DNA from: Bacteroides helcogenes P 36-108 | Lineage (GTDB): Bacteria; Bacteroidota; Bacteroidia; Bacteroidales; Bacteroidaceae | Assembly (NCBI RefSeq): GCF_000186225.1 | Contig: NC_014933.1 | Location: 3,410,001-3,474,000 of the forward strand | Direction of reading: 5' to 3' | DNA: 64,000 bases | Shown: positions 5,602 to 34,253 of the stretch, one piece after another | Layout of the letters: every line of letters starts with the position of its first letter | How positions within the stretch are numbered: the stretch's first letter is position 1 | Program-made: the position numbers and the translations under genes | Notes under the pieces: model-generated | Seen by the model: the letters and a program-made list of their open reading frames with translations, nothing else | The model's database searches: none | What the model was told of the DNA's origin: nothing

Positions 5602-5905
5602 GATACATGTAAAATCGAAGGCTACAAGCTAAAAAAGACATGGCTTGACAATAGATATATTTTTAGGCGATTGGATGCACGAGCAAAGGTTTTTATAGAA
5701 TATGTTACTGCCGAGAAAGCATGGATTCCGGTTGATGCTCCAAATTATCTGATGATAAACTGTTTTTGTGTATCAGGACAAGAAAATAACATTCCATTAA
5801 GAGTAATAAAGTTAGAAACAATGGATGCACCTACCCCTGCTACCATTTTAAACTTATCGCATTCTCAATTACCGACGACATCTACGGCTTCTTCACTACC
5901 ATGAA
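5602..5905 (+). pseudogene. Decayed GNAT N-acetyltransferase (internally deleted remnant)
   Basis: No intact start exists: an in-frame TGA lies just upstream at 5599. The open frame reads through YIFRRLDARAKVFIEYV, EKAWIPVDAPNYLMINCF and VSGQ, which resemble the N-terminal half of GNAT acetyltransferases of the YoaP-related type. In intact proteins a glycine-rich acetyl-CoA loop would follow. Here the reading jumps after VSGQ to IKLETMDAPTPATI, which resembles the later part of the same proteins, so the catalytic core appears deleted. The frame then becomes incoherent. The family identification is from memory of the motif pattern and needs a profile search. Confidence 0.5.
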
Positions 5906-6027
5906 TATTTGCAATGGCCTAATTCATGCCAAGTCAGATTATCTTTTACTGCCATAAACAGTTTCCATTGCCCCGAAGAACAATTCTTGCCGCTAAGCGA
6001 ACTAATATTTTCTTCACTAAGAAATAA

Positions 6028-31191: not shown

Positions 31192-31265
31192 ACACGAATA
31201 GTTTTAGTTATTAATTTGCCAAATATAGCGAAAAAAGACAGCAAACACATTCTATTTAACAATGA

Positions 31266-32192
31266 TTATTCATCTATAGCATGTTTCACTCCTGTTTCAT
31301 ATCCATCGAAGGTAGCACGAAGTATCGATAACATGTCTTGCCGGAAAGATTCGGGAGAAAGCACAGCCAACTTATCCCGATGCCAAAGCAATTCCTGCTT
31401 CAAATCGTATGTGGGTCGTACAAATATCTCAAAATCCGTATAGTCGTCCGTATGCTCCACTTCTACCTGCGACGAATGAAGCGGTGCATCCTTCAGATAA
31501 GCATTTTGCGGCCAAAAAGCACGGTAACGAATGGTTATCGGCTCAAACTGGCGAATAATGCCGAAACAATGTTCAAAATAGATTTCCGGCTTCAAAATCT
31601 TTTTCAACCCGGAAGAGAACTTAGCCTTCTCTCCTTCAAGTACTTCTACACCGGTCATTCTTTCCAACGCAAATGTACGGGTATAATTCCGCCCTTTGAC
31701 CTCACCTATCACATACCAACGCTGCTTGAAAAGACGGACAAAAGCCGGATAGAACACAATGTCGTGCGGAATCTGATAATGTGACTTATAAGTAAAGCGC
31801 AACGTGCGTTTTCTGTCTATGGCATCCATTACATCTTGTAGCAGGCAAGCAGCAGGCGGAGCAGGTTCTATCATCACATCTGCATGCTGATTAACGCGCT
31901 GAGCCAGACAAGACACACGAAAAGCACTGAGCAACCAATTATGCAACTCACGGCCTTTGAAATCTTCAGGCCAAATCAGCTCGTAACGATTGGTACTCTT
32001 ATTGCATTCTATATCCACATACATCAGAGAACAGGCTTTCTTGTAATAACGAAGAAAACTCCGCGCTGTCAGCGGTATGCCCTCATCATTGGCCGACGAT
32101 CTCATCCAACGTTCTTGAATCTCAGACAAAAGCAGCGATTGCTTGCCAAGCGTATCAATCAGCCACAAACAGAATTTATACTCATGAATCAT
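31266..32192 (-). CDS. WYL-domain transcriptional regulator
   Basis: A 308-aa cytoplasmic regulator: an N-terminal helical/HTH-like part (about residues 1-90), then a WYL domain with TLRFTYKSHYQ and the signature KQRWYVIGEVKG (WYV for WYL). A C-terminal WCX-like extension ends in LKQELLWHRDKLAVLSPESF. WYL domains sense nucleic-acid or nucleotide ligands and often control phage-defence or DNA-damage genes. It starts 5 nt after the stop of the OmpA/HNH-like gene, so the two form an operon. Confidence 0.88.
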   Translation of the reverse strand: MIHEYKFCLWLIDTLGKQSLLLSEIQERWMRSSANDEGIPLTARSFLRYYKKACSLMYVDIECNKSTNRYELIWPEDFKGRELHNWLLSAFRVSCLAQRVNQHADVMIEPAPPAACLLQDVMDAIDRKRTLRFTYKSHYQIPHDIVFYPAFVRLFKQRWYVIGEVKGRNYTRTFALERMTGVEVLEGEKAKFSSGLKKILKPEIYFEHCFGIIRQFEPITIRYRAFWPQNAYLKDAPLHSSQVEVEHTDDYTDFEIFVRPTYDLKQELLWHRDKLAVLSPESFRQDMLSILRATFDGYETGVKHAIDE

Positions 32193-32197
32193 TGTGA

Positions 32198-33370
32198 CTA
32201 ATCTTCATCATCGTCCGACTCGCTTCCATTTATATGTTTCAACATAGCCGAAGCATATCCCTTATGCGCATAGCGTTGTTTATACCGATGAATATTATTA
32301 GGAACAAATTCCATATACCCATCTTCGGCCTCATGAGGTGCCAAATCTAACAGCCCGATCAAAAATGTCGCATCAGGTACTGAAATATTGAATCGTTCAG
32401 CGACGGCCTGCCGACCTATACCATAAGTTATTTCCCGTATATGCTTCTTGGTTATCTCATTCGTATTAATATCCGAATACTTTTCTTGAATCAGTTTTAT
32501 TAATTCTTTCTCGTTCGGAAGTTTAATCCTTATTCCATTCCATGCTACACTGCTCAAATTCACACTACCATTTTTAGCCCATTCAGGAATTTTATATGTA
32601 CCGGTTTTCCTCATCGATTCTTTAATTTTAATCTTTGATTCAGGAGAGATTTTTAAAGTATCTATTGCCTTATACATATAAGGAAGAAAAGGACGTCTGC
32701 ATATACTCCGCAACAAACGTCTTTCTTGATTAATGCTATCATTTCCAAATGGAATTTCTTTCCCTCTCTTTATTATCTGCAAAATCCTGTTTAGTCCACA
32801 CAATATTAGTAAGCAAACCCCTGCAAGCAAAACATACAACCAATCAGATGATGCGCTTTCATCACCATTCCGAATATCCGGATTCACAACCTTTTGCATA
32901 TTAGAAGTTTGTATTGTGTCACACACAGCATATTGTCCGCCTTTTTCTATATTAACCAAAGCGTAGCGCAAGTCACGAAAACTTACCACTATTGGTTCAC
33001 TTACATTTGCAACCTCAATAATAAAAGCACTATCCGGAAAGCTATATTTATGCGTAATGTAATTTTTTAATGTATTTGCACGCTCCCTACTTAATCGCTT
33101 ATTAAAAGACACTTCCCCTTCCGGAGACGCAGCACCCACCACTTTGACGTATAATTTTTGTTTTAAATCAATTAAGGAACACAAAGAATCTATTTGAGAC
33201 AGGATAGCATCATTTTCTCTAAACCAAGGTTTTATCTCCGACTCTCCAAATCTAAAATAGAGTTTAAAATGAGACATATCATCCGCAGATACTGACATGC
33301 CACAGAACATCAGTAATGATAAGCAAACAAATAGTTTCCGTAAACACTTCACAATTTTTTCTTCTTTCAT
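32198..33370 (-). CDS. Membrane protein: periplasmic OmpA-like domain, one TM helix, C-terminal domain resembling HNH/LHH nucleases
   Basis: A 390-aa protein with unusual architecture. A signal peptide lies at about residues 12-29. An OmpA-C-like domain follows at about 33-122 (KLYFRFGESEIKPWF, then GAASPEGEVSFNKRLSRERA as in peptidoglycan-binding OmpA domains). One TM helix at about 177-197 precedes a basic stop-transfer (KRGK), so the last about 190 residues should be cytoplasmic. The C-terminus has a pattern like the LHH/HNH nuclease family: HEAEDG (346-351), FVPNNIH (355-361) and AHKG (368-371), compared with typical HHxxDG...LVPxxLH...HTGG. The first His of the HH pair is Pro here. A very acidic tail (SESDDDED) follows. 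The nuclease similarity is my inference. Confidence 0.75.
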   Translation of the reverse strand: MKEEKIVKCLRKLFVCLSLLMFCGMSVSADDMSHFKLYFRFGESEIKPWFRENDAILSQIDSLCSLIDLKQKLYVKVVGAASPEGEVSFNKRLSRERANTLKNYITHKYSFPDSAFIIEVANVSEPIVVSFRDLRYALVNIEKGGQYAVCDTIQTSNMQKVVNPDIRNGDESASSDWLYVLLAGVCLLILCGLNRILQIIKRGKEIPFGNDSINQERRLLRSICRRPFLPYMYKAIDTLKISPESKIKIKESMRKTGTYKIPEWAKNGSVNLSSVAWNGIRIKLPNEKELIKLIQEKYSDINTNEITKKHIREITYGIGRQAVAERFNISVPDATFLIGLLDLAPHEAEDGYMEFVPNNIHRYKQRYAHKGYASAMLKHINGSESDDDED

Positions 33371-33390
33371 AATCTTCTTTTTTTAGTAGT

Positions 33391-33637
33391 TTCGAAATAA
33401 AAAAGGCGCGAACCTCCACTTCCTCTTATTTCTCGTAAGTCAGGCTCTGGTAAACCTTTTGTCAAAGAAATAAGCAAGCAGAAATTCACGCCCGTGCGGG
33501 TATGAACAGTGCTTGGACTTATTTACTCCTGACAAGAAAACGATGTTTACCAGACTTCGACTTTCAGAGCAATACGTCCATGACGTTCAACAATATTTTT
33601 CGAACCTTCGATCCGCTTTTCTCCGTTTCTTTGGTTC
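33391..33637 (-). ncRNA. Candidate structured leader or small RNA (long rod-like hairpin)
   Basis: Read on the minus strand, this stretch folds into nested helices: CTGGTAAAC with GTTTACCAG (33545-33553 with 33447-33455), then GTCA/TGAC, AAATAAG/CTTATTT, AAGCA/TGCTT and a CCCG/CGGG apex. A second helix GAAATAA/TTATTTC lies close to the downstream ATG, with a U-rich segment. A -7-like TAGTTTTG lies at 33651-33644. It could be the 5' leader of the OmpA/HNH-like gene or an independent 6S-like RNA. No Rfam comparison was possible. Confidence 0.45.
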
Positions 33638-33846
33638 TTGATGCAAAACTAAGAAACTTTCCTTAAAAAGCGTGCTGGAACGAACAAAATATCGGAATAC
33701 TGCTTGCTTTTTATCTTTTCGAGATATCCTAACCGGAGGCAAAAATAAGGAGAGATACCGCCAAAAACGGTCCGTGTGTGGATAAAACTAAATAGCACAA
33801 AGAAAAATACAACAGGGATATGGTATCCCGCACAATAAGCTGACTA

Positions 33847-34050
33847 TCAACGGTTCCATACTGTATTACCAATAAAGTATCGCTGTACTACCAATAAAGC
33901 ACTGATAAAATGTCGCAATACAAAGTATAAATCCCAAGATACCCTCAAGCAGTGGCAGCAAGGTGCGCACGAAGGATACTCTTTCAGCGTATTGTTGATA
34001 TGCTTGCCCACCGTCTTTACATCACGAATGAGTGTGTAACTTTGTAACAT
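33847..34050 (-). pseudogene. Remnant of a RhuM/phage-regulator-like gene
   Basis: A 67-codon frame starting MLQSYTLIRDVKTVGKHINN; the segment VGKHINNTLKE resembles the DNA-binding start of RhuM-type proteins. After LKE the frame becomes cysteine-rich and unlike a protein, while a neighbouring frame offers HLAATA-like residues, suggesting frameshifts and loss of the rest. The similarity is weak. The surrounding 33652-33846 and 34095-34250 show nothing else recognisable. If correct, it marks decayed mobile or accessory DNA next to the OmpA/HNH-WYL operon. Confidence 0.3.
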
Positions 34051-34094
34051 GACATCAAGTTACATGTAACATTTTAATTTCATTTCTTTGTAAC
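34035..34094. promoter_or_regulatory. Cluster of TGTAAC motifs with a 12-bp palindrome upstream of nagA
   Basis: TGTAAC occurs at 34035-34040, 34043-34048, within the perfect palindrome GTTACATGTAAC (34059-34070), and in TTTGTAAC at 34087-34094. Such clustering suggests a repressor or activator binding array about 160-220 nt before the nagA promoter. Confidence 0.4.
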
Positions 34095-34253
34095 TCATTT
34101 ATTATCAGATAAAATACAACTTTTTTGGAAAACAGATGGCGTGATGCCGACAGACGATGTACTTTTCTGCATTGCATGCCTCAAGACATTGTTTTTTTAG
34201 AGTATTTAATAAAATACCTAAAAAAGAGGAGTACATATTACCCAAAAAGTATC

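Follow-up and report, generated by a model that had tools for sequence, protein, structure and literature searches.

What does a membrane protein with an OmpA-like periplasmic part and a nuclease-like C-terminus do beside a WYL regulator in Bacteroides helcogenes P 36-108, and how might its gene be controlled? The window analysed here is a stretch of 64,000 nucleotides from this genome, which consists of a single contig of 3,998,906 bases. The window features described below lie on the minus strand, apart from the insertion itself, to which no strand is assigned.

A small accessory cassette

The locus comprises the following parts, in window coordinates:

31231..34193, no strand: accessory insertion, about 2.96 kb (by comparison with the close relative G606)
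31266..32192, minus strand: WYL-WCX transcriptional regulator, 308 aa (PF13280, 3.3e-12; PF25583, 4e-6)
32198..33370, minus strand: OmpA-TM-HNH-like protein, 390 aa (open reading frame; domain searches, hydropathy and homology)

The bounds of the insertion were obtained by comparing its flanks with the corresponding locus of G606 (L121) by tblastn and blastn. Homology stops at position 31230 and restarts at 34194, and the roughly 2.96 kb in between are therefore accessory. In G606, only 276 bp separate the SIMPL-type from the nagA-like gene, which constitutes an empty site; the proteins flanking the insertion are 84% and 93% identical to their G606 counterparts. The G+C content is 36% in the 390-aa gene versus 45% in the window. 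The original prediction had suspected accessory DNA here, and the cassette is indeed missing from the close relative. Because G606 carries the empty site, the unit is neither fixed nor vertically kept, and the strict vertical inheritance that the prediction had named as an argument against itself is not what is seen. A RhuM-like remnant, which it had placed next to the leader, was not recovered: inspection of the reading frames between 33640 and 34320 revealed only short frames broken by stops. The non-coding end of the insertion (33861-33899) contains two direct repeats of 17 nt with a spacing of 22 nt.

The hotspot in relatives is flanked by two WYL genes. One version of it that is otherwise empty (G678:C1:6379557-6379682) retains a WYL gene remnant, the last 42 aa at 74% identity, which points to loss.

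Architecture of the 390-aa protein

The protein can be divided as follows:

33284..33370, minus strand: signal peptide, residues 1-29 (hydropathy and sequence; cleavage after SVSA inferred)
33017..33262, minus strand: OmpA-like periplasmic domain, residues 37-118 (Pfam, below cut-off; homologues)
32780..32839, minus strand: transmembrane helix, residues 178-197 (hydropathy)
32219..32767, minus strand: HNH/Endo VII-like cytoplasmic domain, residues 202-384 (stand-alone homologues; predicted beta-beta-alpha, pLDDT 80)
32264..32335, minus strand: active-site-like motif H346-E347...G351...V356-P357...H361...H369-x-G371 (all 15 sequences share H, E, G, V, P, H, H and G)

Hydropathic segments lie at residues 9 and 178. 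IIKRGK comes after the second, which should place the C-terminus in the cytoplasm. A signal peptide, an OmpA-like domain, one transmembrane helix and a cytoplasmic C-terminus, with the WYL gene starting 5 nt downstream, is the arrangement that had been described for this locus, and we find the same. The OmpA-like domain is recognised by Pfam with an E-value of 2.9e-4, which is below the cut-off. Many OmpA domains of Bacteroidales share about 30-40% identity with it, that of an OmpA-DUF3575 protein coming closest, and on these sequence grounds we regard the domain as real despite the weak Pfam score. It carries a GAASPEG variant, in which Ser replaces the usual peptidoglycan-binding Asp, and keeps NKRLSRERA. 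Among the homologues found, the fusion of OmpA-TM to an HNH-like domain occurs in the window genome only, which means that a chance fusion or a decaying gene is possible.

The architecture had been likened to Zorya. In Zorya type II (ZorA, ZorB, ZorE), a wall-contacting OmpA-like domain is likewise coupled to an HNH nuclease: the wall-bound complex recruits the ZorE nickase to the membrane (PMC11890865). The likeness does not extend to the domain order. ZorB has a transmembrane helix followed by a periplasmic OmpA domain, whereas the window protein runs in reverse, from signal peptide through OmpA and transmembrane helix to cytoplasm, in a single protein. Membership in Zorya was rejected, as the cassette contains no ZorA (MotA-like) motor, the domain order is reversed and PADLOC returned no match for the 390-aa protein.

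A patchy family with a predicted HNH-like core

Residues 202-384 match separate proteins, 172-209 aa long, that occur in Bacteroides, Prevotella, Parabacteroides and Muribaculaceae; to judge by homology, the C-terminal domain belongs to a family that is patchily distributed in the Bacteroidales. A single-sequence search of genome contigs detected no relative of the C-terminus, and a small alignment was required. An order-wide search with the C-terminus produced one false match containing stops and nothing else, and the same search with the family profile produced nothing outside the window genome. No relatives were found in collections of phages, plasmids and viral contigs. DUF642 matched the C-terminus with E-values of 0.003-0.01, below the cut-off, and was judged a chance match.

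We aligned 15 divergent homologues with 21-40% identity to the window domain. In domain numbering, G82, H149, E150, G154, V159, P160, H164, H172 and G174 are invariant in 15/15 sequences. H149, H164 and H172 correspond to His346, His361 and His369 of the protein, the three residues that had been proposed for substitution, and all are present and invariant in the homologues. Two AlphaFold models place a beta-beta-alpha core at the invariant residues; in the model with a pLDDT of 80.2, it is predicted to consist of strands 146-150 and 155-160 and helix 161-168. With VIA, the top match of the first model was the RhsP WHH nuclease (8bd1, Z 5.3), and the next chain scored 2.6. No HNH chain was among the VIA matches listed for the second, more confident model, and the structural evidence is therefore supportive, not conclusive. 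Foldseek returned no significant match for either model.

None of the HNH models of Pfam, NCBIfam and PADLOC exceeded its cut-off on the 390-aa protein, and we therefore do not file the domain as WHH or AHH. A 602-aa relative in G156 (L095) fits both the family profile (7e-8) and Pfam WHH (1.9e-4; 21.5 bits versus a cut-off of 25.1) and thus provides a sequence link between the family and HNH/Endo VII. Together with the predicted beta-beta-alpha core, this link through a relative agrees with the HNH-like fold originally proposed, and the C-terminal domain is probably a DNA-cutting domain, as far as sequence and models indicate. In the 602-aa protein (L095/L101), the WHH-type domain is internal and followed by helical and hydrophobic segments, giving it the look of a polymorphic toxin.

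Compared with WHH (PF14414) and AHH (PF14412) nucleases such as RhsP WHH, the window domain has the same H...G...VP...H...H.G motif and predicted beta-beta-alpha core. One family member matches WHH, and AHH proteins occupy the same operons as the family. The window domain differs in having PHE instead of WHH or AHH, in that the profiles do not match, and in being anchored by a transmembrane helix and cytoplasmic. The residue before the conserved His is Pro (Ile in G891), where WHH/AHH nucleases have His, and this, like the lack of any nuclease profile above cut-off on the window protein, would suit a non-catalytic nucleic-acid-binding or regulatory module, the protein then being an envelope-stress anti-regulator working with the WYL protein. 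Against this, all 15 sequences, at 21-40% identity to the window domain, keep His, Glu, His and His, as is typical of a catalytic site, and we consider the non-catalytic alternative distinctly unlikely.

The WYL regulator

Both the WYL and the WCX domain of the 308-aa protein score above cut-off, and it is the only WYL match found in the window genome. Among 159 Bacteroides genomes, the HNH-like domain is present in five and a close WYL orthologue in six, with all five overlapping; the hypergeometric chance of this, calculated by hand, is about 1e-8, which overstates the association because the genomes are related. In one of the genomes (G074), the domain gene and the WYL gene lie at the ends of different contigs. 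BrxR/CapW-type WYL regulators accompany defence loci, and the window resembles these in having a WYL-WCX protein beside a defence-type gene.

Neighbourhoods of relatives of the nuclease-like domain

The gene for the stand-alone domain is usually the last of its operon and is accompanied by P-loop NTPase genes. Strong homologues of LeoA and LeoBC of the Eleos system lie upstream in three loci (B. cellulosilyticus, Parabacteroides and P. histicola), with 4e-145 for LeoA and 8e-93 for LeoBC in one of them and about 1e-85 to 1e-90 for LeoBC/LeoA in the other two. Three other loci have weaker LeoA/LeoBC dynamins; other GTPases are found elsewhere, and an IetA-like AAA protein precedes the domain gene in one Prevotella locus. 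Both LeoA and LeoBC are present in G593, L045 and L046. A homologous nuclease gene is thus last in LeoA/LeoBC-type operons of Bacteroides, Parabacteroides and Prevotella. The window cassette itself was not assigned to Eleos, as it has no LeoA/LeoBC GTPase and instead an OmpA-TM segment fused to the nuclease.

WYL genes come after the stand-alone domain gene in several loci. In G891, whose domain is the closest homologue of that in the window (40-43% identity), the WYL gene follows after 20 bp and the operon also holds an AHH nuclease. In G729, at the same locus, the HNH gene is replaced by an AHH lipoprotein (AHH 1.4e-15) and a membrane protein with an FGE-sulfatase domain:

L082:8699-9535, minus strand: AHH nuclease, predicted lipoprotein, beside the FGE-sulfatase-domain membrane protein (G729 hotspot)

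Neighbourhood analysis of homologues had been proposed as a check on the link to defence loci, and the relatives do sit with LeoA/LeoBC, AHH nucleases and WYL genes.

These neighbourhoods also bear on whether the cassette is the relic of an interbacterial toxin, a WHH/AHH-type polymorphic-toxin warhead on an OmpA-TM carrier that serves competition or is decaying rather than acting in phage defence. The nearest characterised folds are toxins (RhsP WHH, and the WHH domain of the 602-aa G156 protein), and AHH domains share operons with the family. Such a relic would be hard to reconcile with the transmembrane topology, which places the domain in the producer's own cytoplasm, and with the Eleos-type GTPases that precede the relatives; in addition, no VgrG, Rhs or LXG secretion marker and no immunity-like gene was found in the window cassette. 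We regard a toxin origin as unlikely.

A covarying leader RNA

Upstream of the 390-aa gene lies a structured leader:

33399..33637, minus strand: structured leader RNA, whole leader (both ends inferred; conserved in four genomes)
33434..33572, minus strand: leader RNA core with covariation (101.8 bits with covariance model R1)
33644..33651, minus strand: Bacteroides-type -7 promoter box (TAnnTTTG; here TAGTTTTG), preceding the leader RNA

The leader, of which the window genome has one copy, closes with a U-run that lies 28 nt ahead of the start codon. A DNA search with the upstream region recovered it at about 75% identity in G593, G615, G727 and G729. In each of these genomes, the first gene of the hotspot operon follows it after 25-53 bp, and these first genes are wholly different. 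The predicted fold of the window leader beats all 200 shuffles (z -3.3). The structured leader, kept in other genomes, has turned out to be the strongest part of the original prediction.

Twelve copies, among them Prevotella HNH operons and three WYL-PDDEXK loci, show covariation, with 27 two-sided cells against a background of 8.9 +/- 2.4, and slid controls reach at most 11. Within the genus, the covariance model scores at least 60 bits in about 34 places. In an alignment of 29 distinct rows, which was fitted to the covariance model itself, 97% of cells pair and 15 of the 23 pairs are compensated. The two-sided cells number 100 in this alignment, compared with 23 +/- 6 for shuffles and no more than 24 for slid controls. 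A MAFFT alignment that is independent of the model yields 16/23 compensated pairs. The TAnnTTTG box is found 67-103 nt upstream of the core in 26 of the 29 copies (1.4 expected from shuffles), and a U-rich tail follows about 27 nt after the core in most of them. Since genuine hairpins already score about 37 when read on the reverse strand, we disregarded matches below about 55 bits. A weak match of this kind (L099:5506-5656, plus strand, 31 bits) lies just before a DUF6140 gene in the Prevotella operon nearest to the window protein.

Structured leader RNAs for processive antitermination (EAR) and NusG-type UpxY control in Bacteroides serve long operons. The present RNA is similarly a structured leader common to different long operons, and differs from such leaders in lacking an Rfam match to any of these families. 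A search of the Rfam 15 covariance models matched it to no family, a literature search gave no description of it, and an exact search of viral contigs with part of the leader found no match. The leader is thus a conserved, covarying RNA family that is apparently undescribed as far as examined; it may be an unnamed candidate in a large microbiome RNA catalogue (PMC8040213). An integron attC-like reading was dropped because the sequence of the outer helix varies freely. A type III toxin-antitoxin system (ToxIN) was likewise rejected, with no tandem repeats of the ToxI kind in the leader and no ToxN match.

Genes downstream of the RNA

The same RNA leads HNH or AHH operons in four other genomes. 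It also precedes PDDEXK_4/PDC-S26 nucleases (L148, L155 and L160; by similarity G731, G704 and G588), a PvuRts1I-like SRA restriction enzyme (L159; PADLOC mREase_II 1.6e-105), UDG-like proteins (L150, L156) and one DrmC-like PLD protein. Of 26 matches of at least 60 bits that were not used in discovery, seven have a WYL gene within 10 kb, where about 0.1 would be expected (counted by hand). Several other copies stand before lipoprotein, TonB-type, propeller-sensor or anti-sigma genes (L144, L157, L158, L162 and L165-L167), many of them with lower scores, and the RNA is therefore not exclusive to defence. It heads defence-type operons often, not always.

If the 390-aa protein were an ordinary envelope protein, with an OmpA-family anchor, a junk C-terminus and an unrelated WYL neighbour, its common OmpA part and the single occurrence of the fusion would find an easy explanation. 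The independent homologues of the C-terminal domain, with WYL genes directly behind, and the leader shared with the HNH/AHH operons largely exclude this, and we consider it very improbable.

A further alternative, compatible with the other readings, is that the leader is a stand-alone small RNA that ends at the U-run and acts in trans or as an RNA antitoxin. Such an RNA would fit with the presence of a separate promoter box, with the closed structure, and with the U-run that lies between core and start codon, about 27 nt beyond the core. The proteins downstream are very different, which makes a single antitoxin fold for all of them unlikely, and ToxI-like tandem repeats are lacking; we view a stand-alone RNA as somewhat doubtful. 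The simplest reading of the leader would be attenuation or antitermination with the WYL protein as repressor or sensor, a trans-acting RNA being its main rival.

A small DUF6140 protein (PF19637, confirmed for L081) opens several of the RNA-led HNH operons. A literature search found no paper on DUF6140 operons or on a link between HNH proteins and Eleos.

L081:10964-11182: DUF6140 gene
L046:97-369: DUF6140 gene
L042:5576-5794: DUF6140 gene
L099, about 5714-5932: DUF6140 gene

RtcB RNA ligase genes, of two different types and confirmed by Pfam for L080 and L156, adjoin the RNA-WYL loci in six places. This suggests a possible link to RNA damage or a common integration site.

L080:16075-17247: RtcB gene
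L081:6130-7302: RtcB gene
L082:13125-14297: RtcB gene
L085:12444-13616: RtcB gene
L156:59-1372: RtcB gene
L160:97-1365: RtcB gene

Discussion

Relatives of the leader RNA and of the probable DNA-cutting domain are found next to established anti-phage genes, and the cassette is therefore probably a defence unit. On balance, we lean towards reading it as an envelope-tethered accessory defence nuclease that is expressed via an RNA leader and a WYL regulator. We infer the defence role, as well as nuclease activity, envelope sensing and the function and mechanism of the RNA.

In this model, the promoter and the structured leader RNA would set whether the operon is expressed, probably through transcription attenuation or antitermination together with the WYL protein as repressor, and the operon would normally be silent. 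The WYL protein may be a regulator that responds to DNA damage or infection. The OmpA-TM-HNH protein would sit in the inner membrane, where its periplasmic OmpA-like domain would contact the cell wall or envelope and signal when the envelope is disturbed, for example by an entering phage. In response, the HNH/Endo VII-type domain on the cytoplasmic side would cut DNA close to the membrane, and either the phage or the cell would die. Sensing by OmpA and cutting at the membrane are proposed by analogy with Zorya II. In the relatives, the nuclease domain is a separate last-gene product and the sensor would be a dynamin-like GTPase (Eleos LeoA/LeoBC) or another NTPase, whereas in the window protein sensor and effector would be fused. 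The window protein is a variant that combines known kinds, an HNH/Endo VII-type effector and an OmpA-like sensor, and the RNA family is the part of the cassette most worth following.

Taken together, we tentatively propose, as a possibility that we rate a little short of even, that an undescribed Bacteroidales RNA family serves, together with WYL regulators, as the common control leader of numerous unrelated accessory operons, among which anti-phage operons are prominent (Eleos-type, PvuRts1I-like, PDC-S26 and HNH/AHH), and that the window holds an OmpA-TM-HNH variant that joins envelope sensor and nuclease in one protein. If this is true, OmpA-TM-HNH would unite envelope sensing and DNA cutting in one minimal protein, in contrast to the multi-protein Zorya machines. 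One RNA element would mark and control diverse defence operons in abundant gut bacteria, and would provide a sequence handle for finding new defence systems. It would also offer a testable answer to the question of how Bacteroides keeps dangerous nucleases off until they are needed.
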